A DNA stretch of 28,965 bases from a virus, in the IMG/VR virus record IMGVR_UViG_3300019761_000117, positions 1 to 28,965 of that record; one strand, given 5' to 3'. Of the stretch, positions 1-17,245 are shown piece after piece. The translations under genes were made by a program, and so were the position numbers. Within the stretch, counting starts at the first letter, position 1, and each line of letters opens with the position of its first letter. The notes under the pieces were generated by a model that made no database searches, was not told where the DNA came from, and was given only the letters and a program-made list of their open reading frames with translations.

Positions 1-2388
1 ATCAATAAAAATTTCATTTGATAATTTATTTGAATTCCAAGATATTATGAGCATTTCTTCTATTGCGCCATCTTGTTTCGGTAATAAAAATTGTTCTACT
101 TTTAAGTTTGTTGTTTGATTAATAGGAGAGTAAACAATACTTTCAGGAAGTTCTTCATCATCAATATAAACTTCTGGGATGTACTCTTCTGCAACTATCG
201 TATAATCAAAATCCATAGAGGAAGTAATTGCTTTTATTTTAAATAAATCTGTTTCACTAAAATCTGATTCAAAGACCTTATAAATATCATCTTTATAAAA
301 TAGTTGAGATACTGGTCCATCGTTATTTGTAAGAATCACTTCATTTGTAGTGTTTAATGTATTTGATATTTGATATTTAAAGACTTCATCTGTTCTTTGA
401 TTTTTTATATCAATATTATAATTTTTTCCCTCTTCAAATGTAAATTCATTATCTAAAATAAGAGTATTTCCTGTCGTTGCAATAAGTCTTCCATCAGTAA
501 CAGCATCAGTCAAATATTCATATCCAACATTTATTACCTTTCCAACTTTTCCTGCAAGTCCTTCAATACTTGTTCCTAAAGAAACTGTTTTACTTATTCT
601 TTCATTTTGTTTTATAAGTCTTCTTACTTCTTTGTAGGCATGAGCTCTTGAAGTACAAGTATATCTATTTAAAGAAACTTTCATTTCCTTCGAAGTGGCA
701 TCATAATTTTTCGTTTTTTCTATTATGGGAGTAGCTTCATAATCTTTTTCCCTATCATAATATGTATATTCAATAATATTTGCTCTATCAGAATAATCTA
801 TGTAATCAATTGAAAAACTATCTTCTGTAATATTTCCTCTTGTCATCAAAAATTTTCTACTTGCAGATTCAACAGCTCTATCTACTAAAGGAGTCCAAAC
901 CATACCTTCTTGAACTACGCTTGCGAAACCAGCAGGAGAAAGAAGTGACAAAGCCGTTCTTAAATCTTGTATCGTGTCTAAAACAATATTACATTCTAAT
1001 TCTTCCTCTTCACAATAAGAAGCCCAAATTTCAAACTCTGTTATGTTTATATATTCGTCTTTTATATTTGCTCTTTTTAAAGCATAATAACAAGCCCAAG
1101 CAGGATTACTTATTTTTTTTGTTGGAGATTCAAAAAAGGCATTATCTTCAAAATATCTTAGTTTTGTATTTTCAACTACGCATTTAACAATTGGTCTATT
1201 ATTTTGTAAGTCTTCTGTTGCCATTCCTTTAATAGCTAAAATTGCAGTATTTGGATAAATAAAATCTGTATAATTTATCTCATTTATATACTCTATGGAC
1301 AAATCATTTGCAATAGAAGTTACTTTACTATGAGAACTTATTCTTTTTACTTTTATATCATATTTATCAGTAGGTAAGTCTCTTATACTATACACAAGTT
1401 TTTTTGTAGTCTTATATACAGTATTAAGATTTACCATTTGGAAAACTGTATAATCCGAATCACTATTTTTTTTATAACTTATTTCAAAGGATAAAGAATA
1501 ATTTTTATATTTACCTGAGCTTAAATCGTAAAGACCAGGTAAAGACATACATATTTGTACTTCATTTAAAGAATTTGATAACGTAGTGTATGATTCATCA
1601 TCATTTTGGACATTTAAAGGTCTATTTAAAGGATGGGTTACTCTGTCTTTATAAAAAGATATTGCTGTTTGATCGTTGGTACCATAACGTATTTCATAGC
1701 TTACATTATCGTATGTATTTATGTCCTGGTCATTTACTTTTATATCTGTTATATTATCAATTTGTCCATCCTGTATTACATACATTGCATTGTAATATTG
1801 TTTATCATCTTCTGTAGAAAAATAATCACCTAAAATAGGTGGAACAATCTTCATGGTTCCTAAAATCAAAGGATAGGCAGTTCCTTCTTGTGCAGCATTA
1901 CTTACACTTCCAAAAGCATATGTAGGACTAACTTCTGATAAATTATTTGATACATTTGAAGAAGGTGTTTCAGCTGGAAAAGCAGAATTTATTAAAGCTC
2001 CTCCTGCCATCATTATACCAGTGCTTAGCATAGTAGCAGAAAGAGAACCTGCAGCAAAAAAACCACCTGAAGTTGCAAGCCACCCAGCTGTTGCTCCACC
2101 ACTCACAACAGTAAGTGCCAACATCGCCACCATTGCTAGTGGATTTTTACCATCACCTCCACCTTTAGGAATTGGTGCAACTAACAATTCATCATCATTT
2201 TTTAATTGTATAAATAAATTATCTGTAATATTTCCATTTATTGAAAATATATATTCAACATCTTTGCATTGAGCATATTTAAAACTATAATCATCAAGTA
2301 TTTCATATATCTTTTTATTTTTAATATTTTCATATTCTTTTTGATCAGAAGGATTAAAAATATTATTTATGATAATTAGCTTTGCCAT
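1..2388 (-). CDS. Tail tip / host-specificity protein J-like, with gpI-like N-terminus (partial, C-terminus off the window)
   Basis: The frame is open without a stop from the ATG at 2388 to the window edge (796 codons), so the C-terminus is missing. Residues 1-70 (start MAKLIIINNIFNPSDQ) look like the ubiquitin-like head of lambda gpI-type proteins. Residues about 77-138 are Gly/Ala-rich and hydrophobic, as in gpI and in the N-terminal part of many J-like proteins. The rest is a long mixed beta-rich region, as expected for the central tail-tip protein that binds the receptor and closes the tube. The start overlaps the end of the NlpC/P60 gene by 13 bases. Order (M, L, K, then this) is that of lambda, with no separate I gene between K and J. 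Family assignment rests on position, the hydrophobic segment and length; receptor specificity cannot be inferred. Confidence 0.85.
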   Translation of the reverse strand, partial: MAKLIIINNIFNPSDQKEYENIKNKKIYEILDDYSFKYAQCKDVEYIFSINGNITDNLFIQLKNDDELLVAPIPKGGGDGKNPLAMVAMLALTVVSGGATAGWLATSGGFFAAGSLSATMLSTGIMMAGGALINSAFPAETPSSNVSNNLSEVSPTYAFGSVSNAAQEGTAYPLILGTMKIVPPILGDYFSTEDDKQYYNAMYVIQDGQIDNITDIKVNDQDINTYDNVSYEIRYGTNDQTAISFYKDRVTHPLNRPLNVQNDDESYTTLSNSLNEVQICMSLPGLYDLSSGKYKNYSLSFEISYKKNSDSDYTVFQMVNLNTVYKTTKKLVYSIRDLPTDKYDIKVKRISSHSKVTSIANDLSIEYINEINYTDFIYPNTAILAIKGMATEDLQNNRPIVKCVVENTKLRYFEDNAFFESPTKKISNPAWACYYALKRANIKDEYINITEFEIWASYCEEEELECNIVLDTIQDLRTALSLLSPAGFASVVQEGMVWTPLVDRAVESASRKFLMTRGNITEDSFSIDYIDYSDRANIIEYTYYDREKDYEATPIIEKTKNYDATSKEMKVSLNRYTCTSRAHAYKEVRRLIKQNERISKTVSLGTSIEGLAGKVGKVINVGYEYLTDAVTDGRLIATTGNTLILDNEFTFEEGKNYNIDIKNQRTDEVFKYQISNTLNTTNEVILTNNDGPVSQLFYKDDIYKVFESDFSETDLFKIKAITSSMDFDYTIVAEEYIPEVYIDDEELPESIVYSPINQTTNLKVEQFLLPKQDGAIEEMLIISWNSNKLSNEIFID

Positions 2389-2783
2389 TCATAAAATCCT
2401 TCAATTTTATTTTTATAACACAAGTGGTCTAGCTCTACAATATGCGATTCAATATTTCTAAAAGTATGGAGCATTTGTAGCTTTCCTTCATACTTCACTA
2501 CTACTCCAAAATGTGTAACCATATTTGGATGTATTGGGTCTGTTTTTAGTGCAATACCATAATCTTCTGCAGGAAGATCACATCTTTTAAAATGCTCTGA
2601 AACTACGTTTAAAAATTTCATCATCGCAAGAGCTGATTGGTCTGGATGAATTAATACTTCGGGAAGTTCAATTTTTAATTCATGTTTAAAATAAAGCTTT
2701 ATAAGACCATAACAATCACATCCTTCAAAAGTTCGACCTTCATCTAAAAAAGGAATTCCTATATATTTATTTAAATTTTTCAT
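2376..2783 (-). CDS. NlpC/P60 tail-assembly peptidase (gpK-like)
   Basis: The 135-residue protein has the papain-like NlpC/P60 pattern: catalytic Cys24 in DCYG, His91 in HFGVVV and a third polar residue, probably His106 in LHTF. In lambda-type tails this protein is incorporated at or near the tip and is thought to open peptidoglycan during entry or act in tip assembly. It lacks the N-terminal JAB/MPN domain found in lambda gpK, so only the NlpC/P60 half is present. I chose the ATG at 2783 because it overlaps the stop of the L-like gene as ATGA (translational coupling); the longer frame starting at 2852 would lie wholly inside gene L and adds a sequence with no family resemblance. Confidence 0.85.
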   Translation of the reverse strand: MKNLNKYIGIPFLDEGRTFEGCDCYGLIKLYFKHELKIELPEVLIHPDQSALAMMKFLNVVSEHFKRCDLPAEDYGIALKTDPIHPNMVTHFGVVVKYEGKLQMLHTFRNIESHIVELDHLCYKNKIEGFYEWQS

Positions 2784-3400
2784 AAAATAATTCCTTTGTT
2801 TCCAACATATGGTGCGCCACCAAATCTTGCTCCATTTTGCAAAGCTAAGCATCTTGAAAGTGTGCCATCACATTTTTTTTCAGGACCTGCATATCCACAT
2901 CGAATATCTTTAAATTTAAACCTACATATATTTCTTAACATACGAGATAAAATAAGTACCATACTTCCATTTGTGGCAGAAAGCGTAAAAGTTACAATCG
3001 ATGGAGTTATGTTTGGTTTTCTTAAAATCATTTTCAATGATGTTTCAGGAATGGGATTATCAAGATTGTTTGAAAAAACTACATTTATTACAACTGATAA
3101 ATCATCTTTATATCCATTGTTCTTAATGTCTTTTTCATATAACCTTATATATTTTGCAACTTCATTTTTTACATTTGAAAGCTTTAAATTGAATTCAGGA
3201 ATTTCCCCTGTACTATTATTTGTAATATCATCAATTTCTATGTCAAGGGCAATATATTCATGCCCATTCCAAGTGATAGATTCATTGTTATTTGTGATAT
3301 ATAATATTTCATTTAAAGAAGGAATATTAATATCTAAAAAATACAATGATGCAGCAGTACTACTTAGTTTGTTTTTTTCTTCGATTCCATGATTGGTCAT
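2780..3400 (-). CDS. Minor tail protein L-like, probable Fe-S protein
   Basis: A 206-residue protein with four cysteines in its C-terminal third (Cys159, 168, 177, 184; local motifs RCGYAGPEKKC and SRCLALQNG). This matches lambda gpL, which is known to carry an iron-sulfur cluster in its C-terminal domain and to act in tail-tip assembly. The C-terminal GGAPY-type ending is also typical of the family. The N-terminal part is beta-rich. It lies between M-like and K-like genes, exactly the lambda order. Cluster binding here is inferred from the conserved cysteines. The opposite strand has a 198-codon open frame that is a shadow. Confidence 0.85.
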   Translation of the reverse strand: MTNHGIEEKNKLSSTAASLYFLDINIPSLNEILYITNNNESITWNGHEYIALDIEIDDITNNSTGEIPEFNLKLSNVKNEVAKYIRLYEKDIKNNGYKDDLSVVINVVFSNNLDNPIPETSLKMILRKPNITPSIVTFTLSATNGSMVLILSRMLRNICRFKFKDIRCGYAGPEKKCDGTLSRCLALQNGARFGGAPYVGNKGIIL

Positions 3401-3402
3401 TT

Positions 3403-3744
3403 TTATATTTCCACCAATTCAAATGATTCAAAAGTCATATCTTCTTTATTTAAGGTGGTTTCTATCCAAGAAAGAGGTTTAACAAATCTAACTTCGTGAT
3501 TAGTTTGCTTAGTAGGATGAATCCATATAAAAGATGAATATGTTTCTACAGACTTATAAAACTCTATTAAGTTATCTGCCTTTTCAGTTTCTAAATCAGA
3601 AAGAGCCAATTCATAGGTATATCTTGTTTTTGTATATTTTTTTGCTGAAGAGACATATCCCCCTGCCATTTTAGATTCTCTTGAATTCTTTTCAGGGATT
3701 GCTTTAATACTTTTATATTCTAAATCATTAGGGAAAAGAGCCAT
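3403..3744 (-). CDS. Minor tail protein M-like
   Basis: A 113-residue protein, close to the usual length of lambda gpM. It begins MALFPNDLEYKSIKAIPEKN and has the family's WIHP segment near the middle. In lambda, gpM joins the tail-tip complex after the tape measure and before L. The ATG at 3744 touches the tape-measure stop, and the next gene begins two bases after this stop. Assignment rests on length, motif pattern and fixed gene order between the tape measure and L. Confidence 0.75.
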   Translation of the reverse strand: MALFPNDLEYKSIKAIPEKNSRESKMAGGYVSSAKKYTKTRYTYELALSDLETEKADNLIEFYKSVETYSSFIWIHPTKQTNHEVRFVKPLSWIETTLNKEDMTFESFELVEI

Positions 3745-5783
3745 TACTTATTACCTTTCATCATTTTTCCAAATCCTAAAACATCTAATCTAGCACCTTC
3801 CATAACTAAACCAATTGTATGAACAAGTTCTCCTCTGTGATTTTTTTTACTCATAGAACTCACTTGTTCAGCACTAATATCACTACCACTATTATTCTCT
3901 ATATTTAAATTAAATTGAATATTTCCTTCAGTAGAACTTGATACAAAAGGGAGTTGTCCTGTTTTATTAATATAATCCATTGTTCCAAGACCTACAGAAT
4001 TTACAGAGCTTTTATTTACTATATATTCTCCCCCCATCGCATAAATATTGTTGCCGGTTGCATTTCCTAGATATAGGTCATCGCGTACCCCACTCCCCCC
4101 TTTTAGATGTCCACCATTTGCATATTTCATTGCTCCACTTGATACATGGCTTCCTGTTGTCCAACTATTACTATTTCCAGAAAATTTACTCCCTACAAAT
4201 GAAAATAAATTCCCTAATAAGCCTGTTGCTTGTTTTTGAACCTGAATTCTTATCATGTCCTTGATTATACTTTTGGCCATATCACTAAAACTATCTTTTG
4301 ATCCAGTTGCGAAGTTTGCTACTGCTAGGCTCATCTCATCAATAGAATTTGTAAAAAAATTCTTTGAAACTTGATATGTATCTTTTGATTTATCTTCATA
4401 CTCTTTTAAAGCATCTTCCATCCCATATACCCAATTATTTGATGCTTCTCTCTTTTTTTGCATATCTTGTTCAAATTGTTTAGATTCTAAAGCACTAATT
4501 TCTTTGCTTTGTTCGCTGTACCATTTATCAACTTCAAGTTTATTCTCACCATAATATAAATATTCTGTTTTTTTCTTTTCTAATAATTCCCGCTCATAGT
4601 TATATCTATTCATGGTCGTTGTTTTAAACTGTGTTTCAAATTCACTTGATATAGATTTCTTTTTAGCTGTAAATTCTTCATATGCTTTTATATAATCAGA
4701 ATCATCTGGTCCATAAAATTCTGTTTTTTTTTCTTTTGATTTTTTATTTTTTGCATCAGCCACCGCTCTCATTTTTTTTATACGTTCTAACAAAGCTTTT
4801 TCTGCTGCAATTTTATTTGCATTCAATACTTCTGTTTTTTTGTTTTCATATGTAATGATTTCTTGATATTCTCTTTTTGCTTTACTTAGATGAGTTGACT
4901 TTGTTGAAGCTGTTGCATAATGGTCAGCAGCAAGAAGAGGTTGGGTTTGAGCTAATTTATTAAGTTTTTTTATTTCTTTTTCTAATTCAATAATTTCTCT
5001 TTTTATTTCAAAGGCACTTTGTTTTCTTTGAACACCTAGAAAATCTTCTAATGCTCTTGTAGCTGTTAATATTGCAGGAGTAAATTCAATAAGAACTTTA
5101 TTTCCAATACCTGTAAAAGTAGTTCCTAATACATCAAGTGCTTCGTTTACTTCTCCTGCATCAGAAGCAAATTCTGTTGAGATAATATTACCTGTACGTT
5201 GGGCTTCATTTCCTAATCTTTGAATTTCAGTTGCACCAAGGTTTGCATACCTAACAACTTGACTAGCAGATTTAGAAAAAATATCTTGTGCAATAGCAGT
5301 TTTTCTTGTTCCATCTTCAAGTTGAGATAATTTTCCTATAATAATTTCAAATGTTTTATCAGCAGTTGTGAAATTTTTTCTTGCAAATTCTGTTGTAATA
5401 CCTAATTCTTGCATTGCAGTTTTAGCAGCTCCGCCACCAGTTCTTACAAAATTATTTGTTCTTCTAGTCATTGCACCAAAAGCAGCACTCAAAGTTCCAA
5501 CTTCAACACCTGCAAATTTTGATATGTATATATATTTTGACCAAGATTCTGAAGCTAAGCCTAATGCTTCCGCTTGTTCACCAATTGCATCTGCATTATC
5601 GAGTAATGCTTTTATTGAGGCTGTTCCACCAACGGCAGCTACTGCCGTAGTAATAAGTCCAAGAGATTTTTTAATCATCTTTGTTTTTTTATCTGCTACT
5701 TGCTGAGCTTTATTCATTCCATTCACAAGTTTTGAGATGTCTGCTGCAACATCAATAAGAACTCCACCAACTTTTGCACTCAT
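3744..5783 (-). CDS. Tail tape measure protein (lambda gpH-like C-terminus)
   Basis: A 679-residue protein. The N-terminus (AADISKLVNGMNKAQQ) is the usual opening of tape measures, followed by a hydrophobic Ala/Gly segment at about residues 41-61. A long charged, probably coiled-coil stretch lies at about 250-460. The C-terminal part has the lambda-family signature (SFSDMAKSIIKDMIRIQVQKQ) followed by a Gly-rich region with ANGGHLKGGSG and YAMGGEYIVNK, common at tape-measure ends. The protein spans the tail lumen and sets tail length; by the usual 0.15 nm per residue it would give a tail near 100 nm (inference). The gene follows the G/T chaperone, its normal place, since the chaperones keep this protein soluble. 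Confidence 0.92.
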   Translation of the reverse strand: MSAKVGGVLIDVAADISKLVNGMNKAQQVADKKTKMIKKSLGLITTAVAAVGGTASIKALLDNADAIGEQAEALGLASESWSKYIYISKFAGVEVGTLSAAFGAMTRRTNNFVRTGGGAAKTAMQELGITTEFARKNFTTADKTFEIIIGKLSQLEDGTRKTAIAQDIFSKSASQVVRYANLGATEIQRLGNEAQRTGNIISTEFASDAGEVNEALDVLGTTFTGIGNKVLIEFTPAILTATRALEDFLGVQRKQSAFEIKREIIELEKEIKKLNKLAQTQPLLAADHYATASTKSTHLSKAKREYQEIITYENKKTEVLNANKIAAEKALLERIKKMRAVADAKNKKSKEKKTEFYGPDDSDYIKAYEEFTAKKKSISSEFETQFKTTTMNRYNYERELLEKKKTEYLYYGENKLEVDKWYSEQSKEISALESKQFEQDMQKKREASNNWVYGMEDALKEYEDKSKDTYQVSKNFFTNSIDEMSLAVANFATGSKDSFSDMAKSIIKDMIRIQVQKQATGLLGNLFSFVGSKFSGNSNSWTTGSHVSSGAMKYANGGHLKGGSGVRDDLYLGNATGNNIYAMGGEYIVNKSSVNSVGLGTMDYINKTGQLPFVSSSTEGNIQFNLNIENNSGSDISAEQVSSMSKKNHRGELVHTIGLVMEGARLDVLGFGKMMKGNK

Positions 5784-5786
5784 TTA

Positions 5787-6436
5787 TCATCCTTGAACTT
5801 TTTGCATTGCTTCTATAGCTTGTTCAGCTAAGTTTTTTGACCTCTTTTTTTCTGTTTTCACATCAGAAACCATAAAATCAGTAAAATAACAATGTTTACT
5901 CTCATCTTGTTGATATTTATTTATTGATAAAGCCATACTTTTTGCAATCATTATTTCAAATCTATCTGCAGATGTTGGCTCTAATCTTAAATATTCAACC
6001 CACTCTTCTAACTCACATTGAGACATATTATTTTCTATGTCTGCAACTGTTTTCCCTAAATGAGAGGCTAGACGGAATAAAAACCGTCTAGCCTCTACTT
6101 TTTTGCTTTGTTTATCTCCAATATTTCTAAATTAGCTTGATCTACAAAATCTTTATCTTTTAACAATTCAACTTCTTCTAAAGAAAAAATTTTCTCACCT
6201 TCTTTGTCAACAAGACCAAATGTAAGTCTTGTATAAATACTGTTAATATATGATTCTCCATCTACAATTATTTTATTTTCATCATCAGTTGAAGTAATTC
6301 CATTTGCGGTTAAAACACTATGAACAATATCATTTTCTTTTACCGTCAATTCTGTAACAAAAAGGCCTTTTTCTTTACTAAAAGGTTTTTTATTTAAAAT
6401 ATTTTGTTTTAAAAATGCAGTTTTATTAAAAGACAT
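5787..6436 (-). CDS. Tail assembly chaperone G-T fusion, made by -1 ribosomal frameshift
   Basis: Translation starts with the G gene at 6436, slips -1 on A AAA AAG (6104-6098) and continues in a second frame to 5787, giving about 216 residues. The frame entered after the slip has no stop between 6098 and the ATG at 6026: it reads VEARRFLFRLASHLGKTVA and then runs into MSQCELEEWVEYLRLEP, a pattern typical of the T-domain (DUF4035-like). This conserved LA..LGKTV...MS..E..EW sequence crosses the supposed start at 6026, which shows that the downstream part is normally made as a fusion. In lambda, gpG and gpGT hold the tape measure and recruit tail-tube subunits. Confidence 0.85.
6063..6104 (-). 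promoter_or_regulatory. Programmed -1 frameshift signal: slippery heptamer plus 13-bp hairpin
   Basis: On the minus strand A AAA AAG occupies 6104-6098, in phase with the G frame (GCA AAA AAG TAG). One base later starts a perfect 13-bp stem, AGAGGCTAGACGG (6096-6084) with CCGTCTAGCCTCT (6075-6063), and an 8-base loop. The spacer is shorter than the usual 5-9 bases, so the lowest pairs would be melted when the ribosome sits on the heptamer. The stem also codes for the first residues of the T part. Confidence 0.85.
6095..6436 (-). CDS. Tail assembly chaperone G (unshifted product)
   Basis: A 113-residue protein, begins MSFNKTAFLKQNILNKKPFS and ends INKAKK with TAG directly after the slippery codons. 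It sits between the tail-tube gene and the tape measure, where siphophages place the abundant short chaperone. The slippery heptamer covers its last two codons plus one base, so every ribosome reaching the end meets the frameshift signal. The start ATG touches the stop of the tail-tube gene. No catalytic motif; the assignment comes from position and from the frameshift architecture. Confidence 0.82.
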   Translation of the reverse strand: MSFNKTAFLKQNILNKKPFSKEKGLFVTELTVKENDIVHSVLTANGITSTDDENKIIVDGESYINSIYTRLTFGLVDKEGEKIFSLEEVELLKDKDFVDQANLEILEINKAKK

Positions 6437-6891
6437 TACTCTGCCCCTTTAAAGTCAACAGAACCTGTGATTTCAAGACTACTATCAAAAGAAACTGTTT
6501 GATCATTTGATATATTTCCAATTTTAAAGGTTTGAATAAAAGCATTAAAAATCCAATTCGAACCATTAGTACCCTTTGAATTATCAAGTTCAATTTTTAT
6601 TTTTACTTTTGTACTTTCATTTCTTGCTGATTGCATTGCAATTTGTCCTAAATCATCTTCTATATAATTCCCACCAAGAGAAACTTGCCCTTCGTCTTTT
6701 AATCCTAACCTTTTTTCTTTTGCAGCTGAATTTAGATGAGTTACATCTTTTACAGAAGCACTTCCTCCTCCAATTCCATCAATTGAATTTACTTCTTTTA
6801 CTTGTATCCATGTTGTACCATCATCTACACTTATACTTATTTCTGCACCTTGTGCATCTTGAGCTTTACTATCATATGTATCATTTGACAT
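6436..6891 (-). CDS. Major tail tube protein
   Basis: A 151-residue beta-rich protein with the features of the gpV/TP901-1 tail-tube group: an N-terminal segment with VKEVNSIDGIGGGSASVKDVTHL, then KRLGLKDEGQVSLGGNY, and an ending with a series of beta strands (SLEITGSVDFKG). It would form the hexameric rings of the tail tube. Position upstream of the G/T chaperones supports this. The start ATG follows closely after the tail-terminator gene. Confidence 0.85.
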   Translation of the reverse strand: MSNDTYDSKAQDAQGAEISISVDDGTTWIQVKEVNSIDGIGGGSASVKDVTHLNSAAKEKRLGLKDEGQVSLGGNYIEDDLGQIAMQSARNESTKVKIKIELDNSKGTNGSNWIFNAFIQTFKIGNISNDQTVSFDSSLEITGSVDFKGAE

Positions 6892-6892
6892 G

Positions 6893-7243
6893 TTATTTCC
6901 TTTTGCTTATTGAATAATCTACTTTGATAGAATGAAGTTTTGTATCATTTTCATATCCATCTACAGCACTTAAAAAAACTGCTTTATGTTCTAGTGTCTT
7001 TTTTAGAGCATAAAGCAATGTTTCTGTCTCTTCTTCGGTTTCTGCATAGACTGAGAATTGAAACCTTCCTTTTTCTGGGTACAGTCCTTTTAGATGAGAT
7101 TTTGTTGTATCTGCAATTCTTTGATAAGTCATTGCCGGATAAGTGCATTCTTTTGGTAATATTTTTGAATAAATTCTTTTTCCTACAACTGGAGATAACA
7201 ACTCACTGTTCTTTAAAATGTCATACACTTGTTGTTTAAGCAT
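6893..7243 (-). CDS. Tail terminator / completion protein, DUF3168-like
   Basis: A 116-residue protein starting MLKQQVYDILKNSELLSPVVGKRI, with YPAMTYQRI and the FQFSVYAETEEETETLLYALKKTLE segment typical of DUF3168 tail-terminator proteins, which cap the tail tube and allow joining to the head. It lies between the HK97 gp10-like gene and the tube gene, the standard place. It overlaps the preceding gene by 8 bases. Confidence 0.8.
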   Translation of the reverse strand: MLKQQVYDILKNSELLSPVVGKRIYSKILPKECTYPAMTYQRIADTTKSHLKGLYPEKGRFQFSVYAETEEETETLLYALKKTLEHKAVFLSAVDGYENDTKLHSIKVDYSISKRK

Positions 7244-7664
7244 TTTTTGCCTTTTTTATCTCTCTATCTAATCTTTGATTTAATCTTTTTTCTACTATTC
7301 TTATTACATCTTCGGCTTCCTCTTCTAATGCAGGTCTCATAAAGGGTTGAGCAGTCATTTTTGAAGTACCAAATTCAACCATATGTGAGTAAAAAGGATC
7401 TTTTACTTTTGGACCATAATTTTTCATAGAAATACCAATTTGAAATTTAATAAAGTTAATATTATTAGGTTTTCTTTTTTTTATTTTTATTGCTTTTTTT
7501 AATATCCCTTTATCAATAGGAACTTTTGTTTTTGCATTTTTTGCTATTTTAGAAGCTCCTGCACGAACAGCAGAATTTAAAATATTTTTCTGAATATTTC
7601 TAGGTAATATATGTAAAGACCTTTTTAATTCTTCTAGTCCTCTTATTGTTGTTGTTTGTTTCAT
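7236..7664 (-). CDS. HK97 gp10-like head-tail / tail component
   Basis: A 142-residue basic protein. It shows the HK97-gp10 pattern: IRGLEELKRSLHILPRNIQK, then an Ala-rich helix (AVRAGASKIAKNAKTKVP) followed by DKGILKKAI, and near the C-terminus YSHMVEFGTSKMTAQPFMRPALE, which is the best-conserved family motif. It takes part in the neck or tail completion. It starts 4 bases inside the end of the head-closure gene. Confidence 0.85.
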   Translation of the reverse strand: MKQTTTIRGLEELKRSLHILPRNIQKNILNSAVRAGASKIAKNAKTKVPIDKGILKKAIKIKKRKPNNINFIKFQIGISMKNYGPKVKDPFYSHMVEFGTSKMTAQPFMRPALEEEAEDVIRIVEKRLNQRLDREIKKAKNA

Positions 7665-7984
7665 CTGACAACTTTCGAATATAACAAAAGGTCTTTATTG
7701 CTATTAAAAGGATTTGAAATTTCTAAGATTTTATATGCTAAATCATTAAAAACAATTTTCATTGATGTATCAATACCAGGCATGTATCTAATCACAAACT
7801 TTAATTCTGAAATAGTTTTTGTCTTTTCTGATACAAAATTTTCTTTTTCACTTACAGATTGAATATCGCAAGGTATCTCATAGGGAAAAGCATCTTCTAG
7901 TAGCTCAATTGGTCCACCAAGAGGACCTTTTAATTGAGTTGTTTTTTTGAATACAAGATTATGTTTTAATCTTCTTGCTCTCAT
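7661..7984 (-). CDS. Head closure / head-tail joining protein (SPP1 gp16-like)
   Basis: A 107-residue beta-rich protein starting MRARRLKHNLVFKK. The middle has ETKTISELKFVIRYMPGI-type spacing and the end has a short strand typical of the head-closure group (Phage_H_T_join). It would sit below the connector ring. The call rests on size, the FVIRYMPGID segment and position between the gp6-like connector and gp10-like gene. It begins 4 bases within the connector gene. Confidence 0.7.
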   Translation of the reverse strand: MRARRLKHNLVFKKTTQLKGPLGGPIELLEDAFPYEIPCDIQSVSEKENFVSEKTKTISELKFVIRYMPGIDTSMKIVFNDLAYKILEISNPFNSNKDLLLYSKVVR

Positions 7985-8505
7985 CCTAATGGTCCTATTC
8001 GATATTTTCCAATCATATTGTCAACATATTTGTTGATATTTTCTTCTTTCCCATCAAATAAACACATAGTTTTATATTTAATCCATGTTTTAATTGGCTC
8101 TGGGACGACTTCATAACCACAAATAAATGTAATTTTTATTGCTTTTTTATGATTAATTAAAGAAATATTTTCTAGTATTTTCAATCTTCCTATTTCTAAT
8201 TCTTCATATAAATAATATTTCGATGAATCAAGGACAATATAATTATTGTCTTCATCTAAAATTTCAATCTTTTCTATACTTTGAATTGGATTTTTAGGAA
8301 ATTTAAACCCATCATAAATATTTTCTAAAAATAAGATGTAAGTGGCTGTACCAAACTGTCTATTTGTATATTTTTGACCATCTTCAATTACAGAATCAGT
8401 CAATCTTTGTACTTCATCATCATCAGCTATTCCTACAACACGTAAATATTTTTTAACTTCTAATAAAGTTATAGGTTCAGTTACATTACCACTTAAAATT
8501 AACAT
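7981..8505 (-). CDS. Head-tail connector, gp6-like
   Basis: A 174-residue protein with the Phage_connect_1 pattern: VTEPITLLEVKKYLRV, an acidic DDDEVQRL stretch and a helix ending in AYTNRQ-like YTNRQFG, then P-X-N-P-I-Q-S-I-E-K-I (FPKNPIQSIEKIEI), strands, and a C-terminal helical part after ITFICGY. These features match HK97 gp6-type adaptor proteins that bind below the portal. It lies directly after the capsid region and before the closure protein. Confidence 0.8.
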   Translation of the reverse strand: MLILSGNVTEPITLLEVKKYLRVVGIADDDEVQRLTDSVIEDGQKYTNRQFGTATYILFLENIYDGFKFPKNPIQSIEKIEILDEDNNYIVLDSSKYYLYEELEIGRLKILENISLINHKKAIKITFICGYEVVPEPIKTWIKYKTMCLFDGKEENINKYVDNMIGKYRIGPLG

Positions 8506-8925
8506 CTATTTTTCACCTTCACCTGGTAATAAATCATTTTCTTTATTGTCATTAGAATCTTGATTTTCATCTTTTGACTCACTTTTTTGTTTTTCTAAAT
8601 CTGCAGCTAAATCACCATAAGGTTTATAATAAATAACTGCATCACCTAAAGCATTTGTAATCTCATCTACTCTTGATTGAAGTTTTGCTCTTTCATCTTC
8701 AAGTTCTTCTTTATGAAGAATTGCAGAAGCTTTTTTTTCTTTTTCTTTTTCAGAAATTTCTTTTTCTTCTATTTTTTTAACTGCTGTTTTAAGAGCTGTT
8801 TTATTTAATGGTTCTGCAAAACCTGCATTAACTAAACGAATAGCTTCTGCATCTTCAAAAGATTCTGTATCTCCTTTGTGGTAATTTTTACCACCACAAA
8901 GAGACATTAAAAATTTAACTTTCAT
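8506..8925 (-). CDS. Unknown head-region protein with charged coiled coil
   Basis: A 139-residue protein. Residues 1-40 form a small folded part (MKVKFLMSLCGGKNYHKGDT, followed by EDAEAIRLVNAGFAEPL), a pattern that often occurs in small phage proteins next to the capsid gene. The rest is highly charged, with many Lys/Glu and a probable coiled coil at about 50-90, ending in an acidic tail. It could be a head decoration, fiber-base or assembly protein, but I recognise no defined family. The start has a weak GGGT ribosome site. Confidence 0.65.
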   Translation of the reverse strand: MKVKFLMSLCGGKNYHKGDTESFEDAEAIRLVNAGFAEPLNKTALKTAVKKIEEKEISEKEKEKKASAILHKEELEDERAKLQSRVDEITNALGDAVIYYKPYGDLAADLEKQKSESKDENQDSNDNKENDLLPGEGEK

Positions 8926-8935
8926 TTTTTACCCT

Positions 8936-10093
8936 TTACGGCATTTTTAAAGTTTTAATAGCTTCCGCTAATACAAGTTTTCCATCAACTCTCTTATCAA
9001 TTCTAAAACCAACATGACCAGATTTTGCATATAACTCATCTAATCTTTTTAAAGTCATTACTTTTCTATCTTTGATGTGATAATAAGAGAAATCACCATA
9101 AGCAATTGGTTTAGTTCCAGTTGCAACATCTGGCATATATTTGTTGATTTTAATTGGTTTACCATCAAAAGTATCTGGATTACCTTGGAATCCTTGTGTC
9201 CATAAATATTGATTATTGCCATCTTTCATTTTTCTAAGGGCATTTCTTGTGTTTTTATTCATCATAAGAACTGCATTATCTTCATAATCTTCATCTAACG
9301 ATGTCATTAAGTCTAAAACTTCATCTCCTGCAATAGCTGTAGCAATAGCTGCTTCTTTACCTACCTCTGCAGTAATTAAAAATCCAGTTGGTTTTTTAAC
9401 TCCATCACCACTTACAAATGCTGGTTCTTCTGCTTTAGTAGTAGATTTAGTAAATTTCATTGCAACATAACCTTCGATTGCAGGAACAGTATCTTGAAGT
9501 GATTCATCAGTTACTTTTACAATTCTTCCTGTTTTATATGCAGCAAGAGATACATTACCAATAGTTGGGTCTGACTCTGGATAATCACCTTCTTCATCTA
9601 TCCAACCATTTGCACCATCATCACCTTCAACTGGAATATTTTCTGTATGAGTGGAAGTTGTAACTGTTGCTAAGTCTCTTATATAAGATTTCTCAGAAGC
9701 TTTCATAATAATCGTATCTGCAAAAGTTTCAGGAACTAAATACCCACCTTTAGTATCTGTACTTACTGTTAATGCTCTTTGCTCTGTTGGTGTAAGAATT
9801 TCACCTCTTGCCATTTTCCAAAAGGCATTTCTTGAACTTTCATCTTGTCCATCAACTTCTACAGTTTCAACTACTTGAGATGCAGCAACAGAAGTTTCTG
9901 CATTCATATAAGTTTCTCTTTGTTCAGCTTTTTCCAATCTTTTAATTTGTGCTTCATCTCTTTCAAAATCTAATTCTAACTCGTCATATCTTGTTGCTTC
10001 ATCACTTGATAAACCTTTTGGATCTGCAGCTTTTAAAATAGCTTGTAGTCTTTCGTATCTTTCGGCATTTGCTTTTCTTAATTGTTCTAACAT
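8936..10093 (-). CDS. Major capsid protein, HK97 fold
   Basis: A 385-residue capsid protein. Residues about 1-75 are a charged helical delta/scaffold region (LRKANAERYERLQAILKAAD), which the prohead protease would remove. The body begins around residue 90 with the family motif TKGGYLVPETFADTII, then SYIRDLATV, and the C-terminal domain with NPDTFDGKPIKINKYMPDV and a FGDFSYY-like AYGDFSYYHIKDR. The ATG at 10093 is preceded by a good AAGGA site. The protease lies directly upstream, as in HK97. Confidence 0.93.
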   Translation of the reverse strand: MLEQLRKANAERYERLQAILKAADPKGLSSDEATRYDELELDFERDEAQIKRLEKAEQRETYMNAETSVAASQVVETVEVDGQDESSRNAFWKMARGEILTPTEQRALTVSTDTKGGYLVPETFADTIIMKASEKSYIRDLATVTTSTHTENIPVEGDDGANGWIDEEGDYPESDPTIGNVSLAAYKTGRIVKVTDESLQDTVPAIEGYVAMKFTKSTTKAEEPAFVSGDGVKKPTGFLITAEVGKEAAIATAIAGDEVLDLMTSLDEDYEDNAVLMMNKNTRNALRKMKDGNNQYLWTQGFQGNPDTFDGKPIKINKYMPDVATGTKPIAYGDFSYYHIKDRKVMTLKRLDELYAKSGHVGFRIDKRVDGKLVLAEAIKTLKMP

Positions 10094-10094
10094 C

Positions 10095-10727
10095 TTATTT
10101 CCTTTTTAGTTGTTTTAGTTTTCTTGAATAAAAATCGTGAGAATATCTTTTTTCATTCTCATTAACCTCTACAGATTCGCTTTTTGAAATTTTAACTGCT
10201 CCTGAATCTGCACCTTTCCAAACTGCTGATAATTCAACAATGTCATAATCCGTAACTAGCACATGATTTGGCTCATCTTTATTTTTTGTTTCAACAATTT
10301 CATTAATTCTATATCCAATGGATACATCAGAAAGAATTCCTTCATCATATTTTTGTTTTATTAGTTGAGAATATTCATCACTTCCATATCTAACATCAGA
10401 TAATAATTCTCCATTCTCTATTTCAGTGTTTTCTATTGCTCCAATAGCTGTGTCAACACGTGGATTATGATCAGTAAAAAATGTTTTTAACATATCAAAT
10501 TTTGCACCATCAAGAGAAAGTTCTTCAATAAATATTTCACCGTCCCACCAGTCATATCTTTCACATGAATTATCTTTTGAAATTAAAACAAATCTATGTT
10601 TATTTTCATCAGTTCCGACATCTGGAGATTCTCTGTTTTCTGATTGTGTTTCAATTTGAATAACGGCAGCATTTCTATAAAAAACACTTCCACAAATTGC
10701 ACTTCTAATATCAATAATCTTACTCAT
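10095..10727 (-). CDS. Prohead maturation protease, HK97 family (S78)
   Basis: A serine protease of 210 residues when begun at the third of three consecutive ATG codons. The probable catalytic residues are His87 in FFTDHNPRVDTAIG and Ser136 in ILSDVSIGYR, with an acidic partner, perhaps in the DIVELSAVWKGAD region. It trims the capsid N-terminus and possibly itself. Three starts exist (10733, 10730, 10727); the AAGGA site is too near the first and well spaced for the third. With that start, the gene overlaps the portal stop by 8 bases (ATGAGTAA). Confidence 0.88.
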   Translation of the reverse strand: MSKIIDIRSAICGSVFYRNAAVIQIETQSENRESPDVGTDENKHRFVLISKDNSCERYDWWDGEIFIEELSLDGAKFDMLKTFFTDHNPRVDTAIGAIENTEIENGELLSDVRYGSDEYSQLIKQKYDEGILSDVSIGYRINEIVETKNKDEPNHVLVTDYDIVELSAVWKGADSGAVKISKSESVEVNENEKRYSHDFYSRKLKQLKRK

Positions 10728-11922
10728 CATCATTTCCTTCAGTTATTGTCATATTTAATGGTTGTAGATATGCGTCACCTCCATCTTTTATTGGGTTCAT
10801 TTCTTCTTTTTCTCTTATTTCATTTGCATTTAGCCAACCGCCATTTCTTCCAATATTATAAGCTGCATATCTTGCCGCTATATCACCTCTTAAAAGACCA
10901 TCTACATTAAATTTTGCATAATATTTATCTTTTTCTTTTTCTGTTAATAATTGTTTATTTATAGCCTGTTCAATTCTTATAAAATAAATGTGATATGTAT
11001 ATTTGACTAATTCTTGTGATTGTTCTTGAATATTGTTAAATGAAGATTTTGACAAATCAGCAATCAAGTGTGGAGGAACTCTAAACACACCACAAATATC
11101 ACTTTTTTGAAACTGTCTAGTTTCTAGATATTGACTATCTCTATTTGAAACTGACATTGGTGCAATTTTCAAGCCACCTTCTAAAATTGCAGGAGAATGT
11201 TGATTTGAGCCGCCTTGTCTATTTGCCCAGTCAGTTTTCATTCTTGCGTATGCATCATCAGATAATGTAGTTGGATGTTCTAGTGCAAAATTTGGAGTAG
11301 CATCATTTTTAAAAAATCTTGAACCATGTTTTTCACTTGCTTTTGCGAGTCCTAAAGTTTCAGCTTGGTATGTAATTGGTGAAACTCCAACAAAACCATT
11401 TAAAGTTAATCCCATAACTTCAAAAATCTCTTCTTTTTTAAATTCTATTATTTTCCCATTTATAAAATATGTAAATATTATATGACCACTTTCAAGTCTA
11501 TATTTTCTTACATTATTTGCAAACAATGGTATAAGTTGAGTTATCTCACCTTTCCTATTTCTTATTATTTGTGCGTAAAAATTCCCATTTAAACATAAGT
11601 GAACTATACACATTTCCCAAAAAGTAACTGCGACATTATCAGGATTTGGGCTTAGATATAACAATCTATAAAGAGGATGTGCCTTTGCTTTTAATTTTTC
11701 TTTGCCATTTTGAACATAAAGGTGAAGAGGTAGTGAAGATATTCCCTCACATAAAACTCTAATACAAGAAAAGACTGTAGATATTTTCATAGCATTGTCT
11801 TTTGTAATATTTTCTCCTGATTCATTTTTCGATGAACTAAATAGTTTACCCATTCCCTCAACATCAGAAGTTTTAACAATATCATTTCTATTAGATAATA
11901 AATCACTAAAAAATCTTTTCAT
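10720..11922 (-). CDS. Portal protein, HK97 family
   Basis: A 400-residue protein with typical HK97-portal motifs: STVFSCIRVLCEGISSLPLHLY near the N-terminus, HPLYRLLYLSPNP, and WEMCIVHLCLNGNFYAQI, followed by SRFFKNDATPNFALEHP and the late FNNIQEQSQELVKYT segment. It forms the dodecameric channel for DNA entry and the docking site for terminase. The start ATG overlaps the stop of the small membrane-protein gene as ATGA. Confidence 0.93.
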   Translation of the reverse strand: MKRFFSDLLSNRNDIVKTSDVEGMGKLFSSSKNESGENITKDNAMKISTVFSCIRVLCEGISSLPLHLYVQNGKEKLKAKAHPLYRLLYLSPNPDNVAVTFWEMCIVHLCLNGNFYAQIIRNRKGEITQLIPLFANNVRKYRLESGHIIFTYFINGKIIEFKKEEIFEVMGLTLNGFVGVSPITYQAETLGLAKASEKHGSRFFKNDATPNFALEHPTTLSDDAYARMKTDWANRQGGSNQHSPAILEGGLKIAPMSVSNRDSQYLETRQFQKSDICGVFRVPPHLIADLSKSSFNNIQEQSQELVKYTYHIYFIRIEQAINKQLLTEKEKDKYYAKFNVDGLLRGDIAARYAAYNIGRNGGWLNANEIREKEEMNPIKDGGDAYLQPLNMTITEGNDDE

Positions 11923-12113
11923 TTTTGAACCTCTTTTTTGTTTCCTTCGGCAAGAAAGAAAAATAAAACTACCGTCAAAACTGAAACAATTAAAGCTGCA
12001 CCAAGAAGATAAGTGAAGGCTTCAGCATAAATAAAAAATGTTCCAATACTCAAAACTAATGAAAGGAGAACAAACAATAGTAATAATGCGATTGATAGTT
12101 TTATTTTTTCCAT
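11919..12113 (-). CDS. Small two-helix membrane protein
   Basis: A 64-residue protein with two hydrophobic helices, about residues 6-28 and 34-54, and a Lys/Glu-rich tail. No family recognised. It lies between terL and the portal and its stop overlaps the portal start (ATGA), so it is part of the late operon. Two starts are possible: ATG at 12113 (used here) and an in-frame GTG at 12137; neither has a good ribosome site and the GTG lies inside a hairpin. Small proteins with two helices can be holins, but the place in the head cluster and the lack of an endolysin nearby give no support, so function is left open. Confidence 0.6.
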   Translation of the reverse strand: MEKIKLSIALLLLFVLLSLVLSIGTFFIYAEAFTYLLGAALIVSVLTVVLFFFLAEGNKKEVQK

Positions 12114-12134
12114 GAGAGAATGATACAAAATTGC

Positions 12135-12152
12135 CACCGACCCAAGTCGGTG
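12135..12152. other. Hairpin between terL and the small membrane gene
   Basis: A perfect 7-bp stem, CACCGAC and GTCGGTG, with a 4-base loop, in the 50-base gap after terL. On the minus strand it is followed by a short AATTTTG stretch, which makes at best a weak terminator. It also covers the GTG alternative start at 12137. It could reduce transcription or translation of the downstream genes. Confidence 0.45.
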
Positions 12153-12189
12153 TTGGAAGGTTTTGGAAAAGAATTTGGAAATTTATAAA

Positions 12190-13845
12190 TTAAAGAGTTC
12201 TTAGCCCCCTAGTTTCATATACTGAAGTAGTATCTTCTTGAGTAATTTCAAAGTGACATAGTGCATTTATCCCTGCAGCAGGTCCATCTATTTTTCTGTT
12301 TTGTTCAGTTTTATCAGGTTTTATATTCCCTGCAGCATCTCTTGCAATAATCAAATTTGAGATTTGCCAATTAGTACAAGGATTATTATCATGAGTGATT
12401 TCTTCTTTTTTAATTAGATCTTTAAAAAATTTAGTTGGAGAAGTAAGAGAAAGAAAACCTTGCCTTACTGGTGTACAATTCTCAAAGCCGTTATCTTCTA
12501 TACGCTTAACTAAATGTTTAGCTTTATAGGGGTCAAATAGTATTCCTTCACAATTTTTCAAATCTTTTTTTATATCTTCATAAATATAATCATAATCAAT
12601 AGTACTTCCTGGTGTCGCAGTTACATGCCCTTCATTTACCCACGCTAAAAGCGGTACTTTTAAAGTTTTTTCTCTCTCTTTTACATTATCTTCAGGTATA
12701 TAATATTTGATTTCTAAATAATATTGTTTATCAATCTTCCATATTTTTGCAAGTGCTGAGAAATCATCTGTTACAGATAAATCGAAACCAAATACATGTT
12801 TTATATCATCACTATATATTAATTTTCCTGCACATTTTTTCCATTTTTCAAAAGGAATATATGCATCTGCAGCATTGGTCCACACATTTAAATTTTTTAC
12901 TAAAAAATTGTTTTTAAGTTCAGGTCTATCATTTGCTTTTTTTGCTTGTTTTTTCATATAATCAACAGAAACCGAAACACCATAGTTAGGATTAGCAGCC
13001 TTCCAAATCTCTTCACGATAATACCAATCATGATATTTATCACCTTCAGGCTGTTTTGGAGCTTCTGCAATAAAAGCAAAAAAGTTGTCATCTTCTAATG
13101 CACCTTCTAAAACTTTTTTTGCATGTTCATACATATTAAATGCAGGACTCATTAAATTAAATCCTCCTGTTGTTATTGAAAGCATCAAAGGTTGAGTTCT
13201 TGCACCTTGTCCTGATTCAACAACTTCATATAGTGAGTTATCTGGATGTGCATGATATTCATCTGCTACTCCAATACTTGGATTTGAACCATCTTCCGTA
13301 TCACTATCCCGTCCTAACGTTGAAAAAGTAGTATCTGTTTTATTTATATTAATTACACCATACGCAGTGTGACTATTTTCTTTGAGTTCTGGATGTGCGT
13401 TTATCATTTTATCTACGCCTATCCATGCTAATTTGGCTTGTTTATTTTTTGTTGCAAAAATAATCACTTCACCACCAATTTCAATTCTCAGTAAACTGTC
13501 GGCAATAGTAATAGCAGAAGCCAAAAGAGTTTTTCCATTTTTTCTAGGAATAAAAATAAATACAGTATTAAACCTTCTTACCCATTTATTATTTGAATTA
13601 AGTTCTTCCCAACCAAATGCAATTACGATAACTTTTTTTTGCCAAGGTTCAAGTTTTATATTTTGTTTAGCTAAATCACCTTTATAATGTTTTAGTTGTT
13701 CAATTATTTTCACATATGCAAGACCTAATTTTCTATTAAATCTTAAATTTGGTTTTTCTCCATTTTTAACAGCTAATAAATCTCGTTGATGTCTTTCAAA
13801 AGTTTTTTCATAATAAGGTTTTATTTCTTTATTATCAAATTCCAT
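12190..13845 (-). CDS. Terminase large subunit
   Basis: A 551-residue two-domain packaging motor. The ATPase part has a Walker A-type PRKNGKT (residues 100-106) and a Walker B with catalytic Glu in VADEYH (Asp195, Glu196), followed by the coupling-type stretch MLSITTGG (221-228). The nuclease part has the RNase H-like acidic residues Asp355 (GFDLS), Asp438 (LFDPY) and Asp520 (KIDGPAAGINAL). This is the Terminase_1 family that pairs with P27-type small subunits. The start overlaps the terS stop by 11 bases, with no strong site of its own, so translation is probably coupled. Confidence 0.95.
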   Translation of the reverse strand: MEFDNKEIKPYYEKTFERHQRDLLAVKNGEKPNLRFNRKLGLAYVKIIEQLKHYKGDLAKQNIKLEPWQKKVIVIAFGWEELNSNNKWVRRFNTVFIFIPRKNGKTLLASAITIADSLLRIEIGGEVIIFATKNKQAKLAWIGVDKMINAHPELKENSHTAYGVININKTDTTFSTLGRDSDTEDGSNPSIGVADEYHAHPDNSLYEVVESGQGARTQPLMLSITTGGFNLMSPAFNMYEHAKKVLEGALEDDNFFAFIAEAPKQPEGDKYHDWYYREEIWKAANPNYGVSVSVDYMKKQAKKANDRPELKNNFLVKNLNVWTNAADAYIPFEKWKKCAGKLIYSDDIKHVFGFDLSVTDDFSALAKIWKIDKQYYLEIKYYIPEDNVKEREKTLKVPLLAWVNEGHVTATPGSTIDYDYIYEDIKKDLKNCEGILFDPYKAKHLVKRIEDNGFENCTPVRQGFLSLTSPTKFFKDLIKKEEITHDNNPCTNWQISNLIIARDAAGNIKPDKTEQNRKIDGPAAGINALCHFEITQEDTTSVYETRGLRTL

Positions 13846-14389
13846 CTAAATCGTGGTCCTCTTTTGAAAGTTCTCCAAAAATATCAAAAATACTTGCTTG
13901 TTTTTGTCCTGGTCTTTTAAATTTTAATCCAAGTTTTTTTCTAGCTGAAATTGATAATCCTAATCTATCAGATACAGTCATTAAATTCTTTTGAACTGCT
14001 TGATAAGCATTGAAAGTTGGGTTTAAATATGTGGCTCCTGTTTTTGGACTCATGCAAGTGTAACCTTCTAAAGAAACTTGTTCGCCTAAATCTAAATACT
14101 CCTCATAAGATTTAGCACACATTACAATCAAAGGTTCATCTGTTGGTGAATAATGTTCACCTAGTTCTTTTATAATCTCATCCATTTTCCTAATAGCAGT
14201 TGGCCCTAGAATTCTCTTGTAAGGCGTCATTTGATTGGAATTTTTGGAAATTCTGTGCTCAGTATCCCATTTATCTTTTTTGACAATTTTTCCAATTTGT
14301 GTGTGATTAGTACCGTATTGCTCGGCTATTTTACGATATGAAAGTTTTGTATTTTCTACTAGATCCTTTATTTCTTCATAGTGTTCCAT
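13835..14389 (-). CDS. Terminase small subunit, P27 family
   Basis: A 184-residue protein. Residues about 10-35 form a helix-turn-helix (LSYRKIAEQYGTNHTQIGKI), expected to bind the packaging site. The middle and end carry the P27-type pattern: YEEYLDLGEQV, then NPTFNAYQAVQKNLMTVSDRLGLS and ARKKLGLKF. It recognises phage DNA and recruits the large subunit. The ATG at 14389 is preceded by GAGGGG about 9 bases away, which belongs to the GC-rich spacer discussed as cos. It is the first gene of the late packaging cluster. Confidence 0.85.
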   Translation of the reverse strand: MEHYEEIKDLVENTKLSYRKIAEQYGTNHTQIGKIVKKDKWDTEHRISKNSNQMTPYKRILGPTAIRKMDEIIKELGEHYSPTDEPLIVMCAKSYEEYLDLGEQVSLEGYTCMSPKTGATYLNPTFNAYQAVQKNLMTVSDRLGLSISARKKLGLKFKRPGQKQASIFDIFGELSKEDHDLDGI

Positions 14390-14511
14390 TATAGGGTACC
14401 CCTCGAAAACAGATTGTGTGAAAATTTGTGAGGGGGTCGGTCTTTAAGGCATTCTACTTTGTAGGATTTTGACCGCCCCTCCCCTATGATTTTATTTAAG
14501 ATACTACACAT
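14390..14511. other. GC-rich intergenic region, candidate cos/packaging site
   Basis: In a genome of very high A+T content this 122-base gap holds three GC-rich blocks: ATAGGGTACCCCTC (14391-14404), GAGGGGGTCGGTC (14430-14442) and GACCGCCCCTCCCCTAT (14471-14487). They are mutually inverted: CCCCTC with GAGGGG, AGGGGGTCGGTC with GACCGCCCCT (one extra base), and ATAGGG with CCCCTAT. The gap lies between an HNH gene and terS, the usual place of cos in HK97-type phages with HNH-dependent packaging. The cut position cannot be read from the sequence. Confidence 0.55.
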
Positions 14512-14733
14512 TTAATTTTTTTCTAATTCTAAACATTGGTTTATAATTGTCTTTTCTTTGTGTTTAGATGTAATTTCCCAATGATTAGACCAAATTACAA
14601 TTATCCCATCTTTTGTTGTTTTTTGTATCTCATAAACAATGGCTTCTTTTCTTATGGATACTGAGATAATTATTCCTTTAAAAAAATTGTTAACTTCTAC
14701 TTTTGTTCCAATCGGAATTATTTTAATTTGCAT
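14512..14733 (-). CDS. Small unknown protein, probable beta-barrel
   Basis: About 73 residues from MQIKIIPIGTKVEV; a start 21 bases further upstream (14754) is also open. The alternating pattern GTKVEVNNFFKGIIISVSI, then VYEIQKTTKDG and a late WSNHWEI, resembles a small SH3-like beta barrel, but I recognise no family. It overlaps the end of the HNH gene, so it is probably coupled to it. It is the last gene before the candidate cos region. Function unknown. Confidence 0.6.
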   Translation of the reverse strand: MQIKIIPIGTKVEVNNFFKGIIISVSIRKEAIVYEIQKTTKDGIIVIWSNHWEITSKHKEKTIINQCLELEKN

Positions 14734-15058
14734 TTCTTTTTCTTTTTTCTTCATGAGTTTTAATACTATGACATGCTTTACATAAAGTTTCTAAGTTATT
14801 TAAAGCATATGCATCGCCACCATCTTTAAGTTCTTCTATATGATCTACAACTAAGTTTTCTTTACTATCACATTGAACACATCTTGCAGCATCACGAACT
14901 AAAACTTCTGCTCTTACTGCTTTCCATTTTGCACTATTATAAATTTTCTTTGAATTTTTATCTCTTGTCTTAGTATCATATTCTTTGTTACACTTTGGAC
15001 ATCTTGTATTTTTTGTAGGTTTTAGATAATAACCATGAATACTACATAAGCTTCTCAT
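14723..15058 (-). CDS. HNH endonuclease, packaging-associated
   Basis: A 111-residue HNH protein. The core has CVQC (60-63), the VDHI motif (Asp72, His73), an Asn at 87-88 in ALNNLETLC and CKACH (93-97): two Cys pairs for structural zinc and the DH/N/H active site. An extra N-terminal pair CPKC (20-23), with Cys5 and His8, could bind another zinc. HNH proteins beside terS are known to work with terminase in cutting concatemers of cos phages; this gene is separated from terS by only one small gene and the GC-rich region. It starts inside the preceding stop (ATGA). Confidence 0.88.
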   Translation of the reverse strand: MRSLCSIHGYYLKPTKNTRCPKCNKEYDTKTRDKNSKKIYNSAKWKAVRAEVLVRDAARCVQCDSKENLVVDHIEELKDGGDAYALNNLETLCKACHSIKTHEEKRKRNAN

Positions 15059-15435
15059 TTGTAAAATCCTAATAAAGTATTTTTTGTAAGTGAGATAGTT
15101 TTATCGTATGAGTCTGATTCTTCAGGTGTGATTTTGCAACAAATATATTCATCAGATAAAAGCTTTATAATTTCATAATCTAATTTTACATAGATAAAAT
15201 TTTGTTGTTTTAATATCTTTGCTTTAATATCTATTTTATTTCTATAAGCATTTGAAAAATACTTAGAACTAAGTCCTAACTTTTGTTCAACCATAAAAGC
15301 TAATTCATACTCTTTTGAATCAATCTTGCTTGGTATGTTATTTAAAATATCAAGAACAATTTTCTTGCTAACATTTGGATATTTAGCTGAGATAGTATCT
15401 GCATATTCTGATAAATTTGTAGAGAAAGTATTCAT
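15055..15435 (-). CDS. Unknown early protein (126 aa)
   Basis: A 126-residue soluble protein with no recognised motif. It starts MNTFSTNLSEYADTISAKYP and has mixed helices with a basic middle (KIDIKAKILKQQ). It overlaps both neighbours by 4 bases (ATGA), between the DnaC-like loader and the HNH gene, so it is co-translated with replication functions. It could be an accessory replication or recombination-related protein; that is only inference from position. Confidence 0.7.
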   Translation of the reverse strand: MNTFSTNLSEYADTISAKYPNVSKKIVLDILNNIPSKIDSKEYELAFMVEQKLGLSSKYFSNAYRNKIDIKAKILKQQNFIYVKLDYEIIKLLSDEYICCKITPEESDSYDKTISLTKNTLLGFYK

Positions 15436-16777: not shown

Positions 16778-16959
16778 TTTGCTCTTTCTAATTCTATTTC
16801 TTTTCCATATCCACGTATAATTGTTCTTTTAAACTGAGACTGATAATGTCTTTTCATAAGTGGATTACACCTTCTTAATATGGGTAATAATATCTTCTGA
16901 ACATCATTACTGCTTTTTATCTCAATTACCTCTGAAGAGTTAAAAATAAAAAGTTTCAA
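16774..16959 (-). CDS. Small unknown protein (61 aa, TTG start)
   Basis: A 61-residue basic protein (begins with a TTG codon; MKLFIFNSSEVIEIKSS). The C-terminal half is rich in Arg/Lys (RRCNPLMKRHYQSQFKR). No family recognised. Its stop overlaps the initiator start (ATGA), so it is likely co-translated with it. The start has only a weak GGTAAAG site. Function unknown. Confidence 0.5.
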   Translation of the reverse strand: MKLFIFNSSEVIEIKSSNDVQKILLPILRRCNPLMKRHYQSQFKRTIIRGYGKEIELERAK

Positions 16960-16977
16960 GGCTTTACCAACAGTTTG

Positions 16978-17243: not shown

Positions 17244-17245
17244 GA

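Follow-up and report, generated by a model that had tools for sequence, protein, structure and literature searches.

Probable programmed -1 frameshifting at the G/T overlap of a lambda/HK97-type siphophage, beside an unusually long and close hairpin

The window, that is, the whole stretch of 28,965 nucleotides analysed here (IMG/VR virus record IMGVR_UViG_3300019761_000117), carries on its minus strand a siphophage late operon, in which the genes for the tail terminator, the tail tube protein, G and the tape measure follow each other in succession:

7243-6893, minus strand: tail terminator gene, part of the late operon
6436..6891, minus strand: major tail (tube) protein gene, the upstream neighbour of G (PHROG 158, E 7.9e-23; Phage_TTP_11, E 1.9e-6)
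6095..6436, minus strand: gene G, putative tail assembly chaperone of 113 aa in the 0 frame, an ORF assigned from its position between the tail tube gene and T/tape measure
5787..6098, minus strand: T part of G-GT in the -1 frame, 103 aa and a stop (PHROG 337; Pfam Phage_tail_T)
3744..5783, minus strand: tail tape measure gene, the downstream neighbour (Tape_meas_lam_C, E 8.2e-20, and several tape-measure PHROGs)

The ATG of G overlaps the stop codon of the tail tube gene, and the tape measure start is preceded by AAGGA. The overlapping G and T frames thus occupy the place of a lambda/HK97-type G-GT pair, between the tail tube and tape measure genes. In family searches the G protein gave only a weak match, to the tail assembly chaperone family PHROG 344 (E 0.079), and none in Pfam or NCBIfam; the NCBIfam search as a whole returned zero matches, a PDB sequence search no meaningful match, and a comparison of the locus with Rfam chance matches only. 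Single-sequence searches of viral and genome collections with the fusion protein and the terminase found no close relative, the nearest phage proteins being distant.

Four candidate signals are located around the end of G:

6116..6119, minus strand: GGAG, a possible stimulatory internal Shine-Dalgarno sequence, read from the letters and weak when taken alone
6098..6104, minus strand: slippery heptamer A AAA AAG of the form X XXY YYZ, in phase with G
6095..6097, minus strand: G stop codon TAG directly 3' of the heptamer, its A and G lying inside the stem
6063..6096, minus strand: candidate stimulatory hairpin with a perfect 13-bp stem and an 8-nt loop, encoding EARRFLFRLAS in the -1 frame

The first-pass annotation had described an in-phase A AAA AAG followed at once by the stop, with a perfect 13-bp stem one base further on, and each of these elements was recovered. 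The minus-strand codons at the end of G are GCA AAA AAG TAG, the heptamer running from 6104 to 6098 and the stop from 6097 to 6095. The stem arms AGAGGCUAGACGG (6096-6084) and CCGUCUAGCCUCU (6075-6063) form 13 Watson-Crick pairs that enclose the 8-nt loop UUUUUAUU; the stem starts at the second base of the G stop, 1 nt past the heptamer, and its first pairs thus include the A and G of TAG. In-phase XXXYYYZ heptamers are common in this AT-rich window (116 in 7,666 codons, six of them A AAA AAG), and the heptamer alone is therefore weak evidence; it gains strength because the G stop follows directly and because homologs have conserved it. In E. coli, A AAA AAG ranks among the most efficient heptamers (PMC4066793). 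The GGAG, which had been overlooked at first, precedes the heptamer by 11 nt, within the 6-17 nt range of upstream Shine-Dalgarno-like elements (PMC4066793), and makes the site resemble those of dnaX and IS911.

The open stretch of the -1 frame extends from 6131 to 5787 and has no ATG, GTG or TTG upstream of 6026. Translation across the junction KAKK-VEAR yields a G-GT fusion of 216 aa. The 103-residue T part belongs to the T family by its match to PHROG 337 (tail; minor-tail-protein-T domain; E 3.9e-16), and its score against Pfam Phage_tail_T (E 5.2e-5, 24.0 bits) lies just below the cut-off of 25.9; it also matches T proteins of Moraxella, Psychrobacter, Campylobacter, Streptomyces and HK97 phages. 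Homology to T runs across the junction: the motif RRFLFRLAxHLGKT, with invariant L10, A11, L14, G15 and T17, lies within and just past the hairpin, 5' of 6026. The ATG at 6026, the only usable T start, is codon 25 of the T part and, in contrast to most genes nearby, lacks a Shine-Dalgarno sequence. The earlier observation that the -1 frame is open through the stop and that a conserved motif crosses the apparent start at 6026 is thus borne out, the motif in fact beginning well upstream. T overlaps the end of G in the -1 frame and lacks a start of its own before the conserved domain. Since the conserved motif lies upstream of a start codon that is devoid of a Shine-Dalgarno sequence, T makes sense only as an extension of G.

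The same arrangement is widespread. In a set of 123 distinct homologous loci collected from two viral-contig scans and a phage collection, 112 contain an in-phase slippery heptamer in the G/T overlap (69 A AAA AAC, 16 G GGA AAC, 7 C CCA AAG, 6 A AAA AAG and 14 others). The G stop follows the heptamer directly in 40 of these 112 loci and one codon later in 25. In the nearest clade of this data set (L095, L020 and L016) the heptamer is likewise followed at once by TAG, and VEGREFLF is read after the slip. Ten of the 11 loci lacking a heptamer were inspected; nine of them retain the -1 overlap of G and T, several with a GGGGGAA run, and the case named at the outset as refuting, heptamer-less homologs in which T is translated from its own start, was not found among them. 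The HK97 record NC_002167 annotates the homologous gene as translated by -1 frameshift.

Several other public records (L003, L004, L006 and others) let T begin only at internal codons that come after the conserved motif, with no fusion annotated; these T annotations therefore appear to be truncated. One locus (L096, 1440-1530) seems to depart from this pattern: entry into its T frame from the upstream ORF would take a shift of +1 and not of -1. Shine-Dalgarno-like 4-mers concentrate at a distance of 5-8 nt upstream of the heptamer: of 73 dereplicated loci in the L003-L161 family, 35 have one there, against 20.8 +/- 2.8 in synonymous sequences; considered as a sharp signal of the family, this concentration was tempered by the synonymous control.

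The hairpin is far more stable than its coding content demands. The minimum free energy of the 81 nt around the site is -27.1 kcal/mol, compared with -13.5 +/- 2.7 for dinucleotide shuffles (z -5.0, 0/200). Among 20,000 sequences that encode the same T-frame protein with codons sampled according to the usage of the window itself, 3 had a stem of at least 13 bp, and the energy of the real site deviated from these synonymous sequences by z -6.7. The stem includes the arginine codon CGG, which serves for 2 of the 278 arginines in the window, and across the codons of EARR-FLF-RLAS third bases pair with third bases. For the family, we compared the 57 nt after the slip with their synonymous versions in 76 dereplicated loci, using a region further downstream as control. 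With a mean z of -1.21 +/- 0.20, as against -0.31 +/- 0.12 in the control, the post-slip sequence exceeds its synonymous counterparts in stability; no other locus of the 76 is as extreme as the window (z -6.4).

Other phages have hairpins at the corresponding place. The same hairpin, written in different letters, lies on PARR-FKF-RLAG in the IMG/VR phages L097, L101, L103, L122 and L124; in CJIE4-type Campylobacter phages a related hairpin covers QGR-LIY-RLA. Among eight counterpart sequences, a small set chosen by protein motif, 6 of the 13 pairs have changes in both partners, where shuffles give 2.5, and the pairing is lost when the stem partner is slid along. For the whole family aligned on the exact motif the excess of third-base pairs is marginal (2.17 against 1.98 expected, 14/400), and the candidate of a family-wide conserved hairpin was dropped; since pairing across the family is only slightly above expectation, the hairpin is better regarded as a feature of some lineages. 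These observations suggest that in the T family a hairpin can anchor on a conserved piece of coding sequence, the motif ARRF-LF-RLA, in whose codons the palindrome matches third bases with third bases.

Such anchoring accounts for the short spacer. From the end of the heptamer to the R codon of the motif there are 20 nt in 79 of 109 loci and 11 nt in the clade of the window; the spacer is 1 nt because the hairpin stays on the motif while the slip site lies 9 nt closer than in most homologs. A simple rule is suggested, by which the spacer length changes as the slip site moves and the hairpin stays where it is. Other loci with short spacers are L032 (10 bp at 2 nt) and L077 (6 bp at 2 nt). The usual spacer is 5-9 nt (PMC5009743), and the nominal 1 nt of the window falls outside this range; nor does the stem begin 5-8 nt downstream, as expected of a stem-loop of the dnaX/IS911 type. 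The entry tunnel of the ribosome holds nucleotides up to +11, and a dnaX-type stem starts at +12 (PMC8861025). With AAA in the P site and AAG in the A site, the lower four base pairs (AGAG/CUCU) must consequently be open. The remaining nine would then begin at +12, as in dnaX, which amounts to a 5-nt spacer once the tunnel has opened four pairs. The remark in the first-pass annotation that the very short spacer makes the layout unusual therefore holds in part: a spacer of 1 nt is present and uncommon, but it is nominal, nine base pairs starting at +12, and it need not hinder function.

Comparison with known systems places the locus among phage tail chaperones and the signal among bacterial frameshift sites. 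The slip site of lambda is G-rich, whereas the window has A AAA AAG instead. No in-phase XXXYYYZ heptamer is found in the HK97 overlap, in contrast to the window, where moreover the stop stands directly behind the heptamer and a long hairpin lies 1 nt away, unlike in lambda/HK97. What is common to the window and the lambda/HK97 G-GT system (PMC5009743; NC_002167) is the gene order tail tube - G - T - tape measure, the -1 overlap at the end of G and, as predicted for the window, the product pair G and G-GT; the T protein of HK97 is homologous to the T domain of the window (37% over 49 residues). The E. coli dnaX gene, a different gene with no homology implied, has the same heptamer and a simple downstream stem-loop, and even CAAAGCAAAAAAG is common to both. 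It carries AGGGAG 10 nt upstream (GGAG at 11 nt in the window), with a 5-nt spacer and an 11-bp stem (PMC8861025), as against a nominal 1 nt and 13 bp here. IS911 likewise combines an upstream GGAG, a slippery heptamer and a downstream stem-loop (PMC4066793), but in the transposase of a mobile element, and stimulatory structures generally begin 5-8 nt downstream (PMC4066793), unlike in the window. The tail chaperone of CJIE4-type Campylobacter prophages (KF751795, L003) has a -1 overlap and a hairpin over the same motif, QGRLIYRLA; it differs in using C CCA AAG, in the distance from heptamer to R codon (14 nt, 11 in the window) and in a stop that comes 18 nt later.

Four other explanations were weighed. 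The frameshift could be real and the hairpin nevertheless serve as a plus-strand intrinsic terminator, a stem followed by ACTTTTTTG, that stops antisense transcription. On the plus strand there is indeed a GC-rich stem with a T-rich tail, and among terminator-like stems in window positions 1-20000 it has the most G-C pairs. The T run, however, is the complement of the heptamer and so comes free, while in the counterparts L097, L101, L103 and L124 the hairpin lies about 9-11 nt from a GGGAAAC heptamer and thus has no such run. No recognisable plus-strand gene ends at the hairpin, the flanking genes over many kilobases are all on the minus strand, and the hairpin does not mark the end of a plus-strand transcription unit; we consider a terminator very unlikely. 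Still less probable is the synthesis of T alone by re-initiation at the ATG of 6026, the heptamer and the overlap being incidental: this codon does lie in the T frame, and the public annotation of several homologs has T beginning at similar internal codons, but it has no Shine-Dalgarno sequence, it follows the beginning of the conserved motif by a long way, being codon 25, and the heptamer is kept in 112 of 123 homologs.

A change of frame by RNA polymerase rather than by the ribosome, through slippage on the run of six A, has equally little to recommend it. Transcriptional slippage usually needs runs of about nine A, so the A6 run, though present, is short for it, and a hairpin downstream of the run is able to affect ribosomes, though not the polymerase by which it was transcribed. 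The heptamers of homologs include kinds without a long homopolymer (GGGAAAC, CCCAAAG, AAATTTA and GGGAAAA), which favours ribosomal over transcriptional slippage; GGGAAAC, CCCAAAG and AAATTTA stand at the same place as the A6 run. A sequencing error or a broken gene is the least credible of all: a single-base change in the length of the A run would also join the frames, but the same overlap recurs in over a hundred homologs.

Programmed -1 frameshifting that makes G and G-GT of a lambda/HK97-type siphophage thus very probably explains the locus, and the initial reading of it as the source of a tail chaperone G-T is supported by the gene order, the T family, the heptamers and overlap in 112 of 123 loci and the HK97 annotation. 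Most ribosomes would read GCA AAA AAG and terminate at TAG, releasing the 113-aa G. A minority would pause while AAA occupies the P site and AAG the A site, the hairpin blocking the tunnel entrance; both lysyl-tRNAs would re-pair on AAA AAA in a classical two-tRNA -1 slip, and the ribosome would go on in the -1 frame to produce the 216-aa G-GT. We infer both the slippage, with an efficiency that leaves G-GT the minor product, and its stimulation by the stem and the upstream GGAG. By analogy with lambda (PMC5009743), G and G-GT would function as chaperones, coating the tape measure protein and recruiting tail tube subunits. A pair of this type would be made in a fixed ratio, with both proteins needed for tail assembly. 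The mechanism is a known trick common to many tailed phages; what stands out is just the hairpin, unusually long and placed almost on the slip site.

Since the stem takes its first pairs from the UAG stop, at the A and the G, it is conceivable, though improbable, that the hairpin acts twice, on the two tRNAs at AAA AAG and then at the stop codon. There it might dock toward the A site and delay the release factor, so that a single P-site tRNA on AAG slips back. Such a double action, if true, would be a hybrid between classical -1 frameshifting and the stop-codon hairpin seen in T4 gene 60. The site offers a useful test of the minimal spacer for a bacterial frameshift, its hairpin being long and close, and of any extra frameshifting due to a stem with the stop codon inside it. 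The analysis also identifies G-GT as the correct product of two genes that would be overlooked or cut short in automatic annotation. The junction peptide KAKKVEAR is fragmented by trypsin, and the mature lambda particle contains neither gpG nor gpGT (PMC5009743), which makes virions the wrong sample in which to look for it.

Other features were noted elsewhere in the window. Nested inverted repeats at 16376-16479, built of TCGGATTTA..TAAATCCGA units with 40-nt arms that are 80% complementary, lie within the ORF 16076-16777 and are possibly an origin or a protein-binding site. Overlapping AT-rich inverted repeats occur at 19835-19905, 5' of the ORF 18716-19777. In the rightward region 23966-26938, one translation reads as a probable DNA cytosine methyltransferase-like protein, and an ORF lying together with it, judged in the same way from its translation only, looks like a PAPS reductase / ATP pyrophosphatase with the motif SGGLDSTVLLH.
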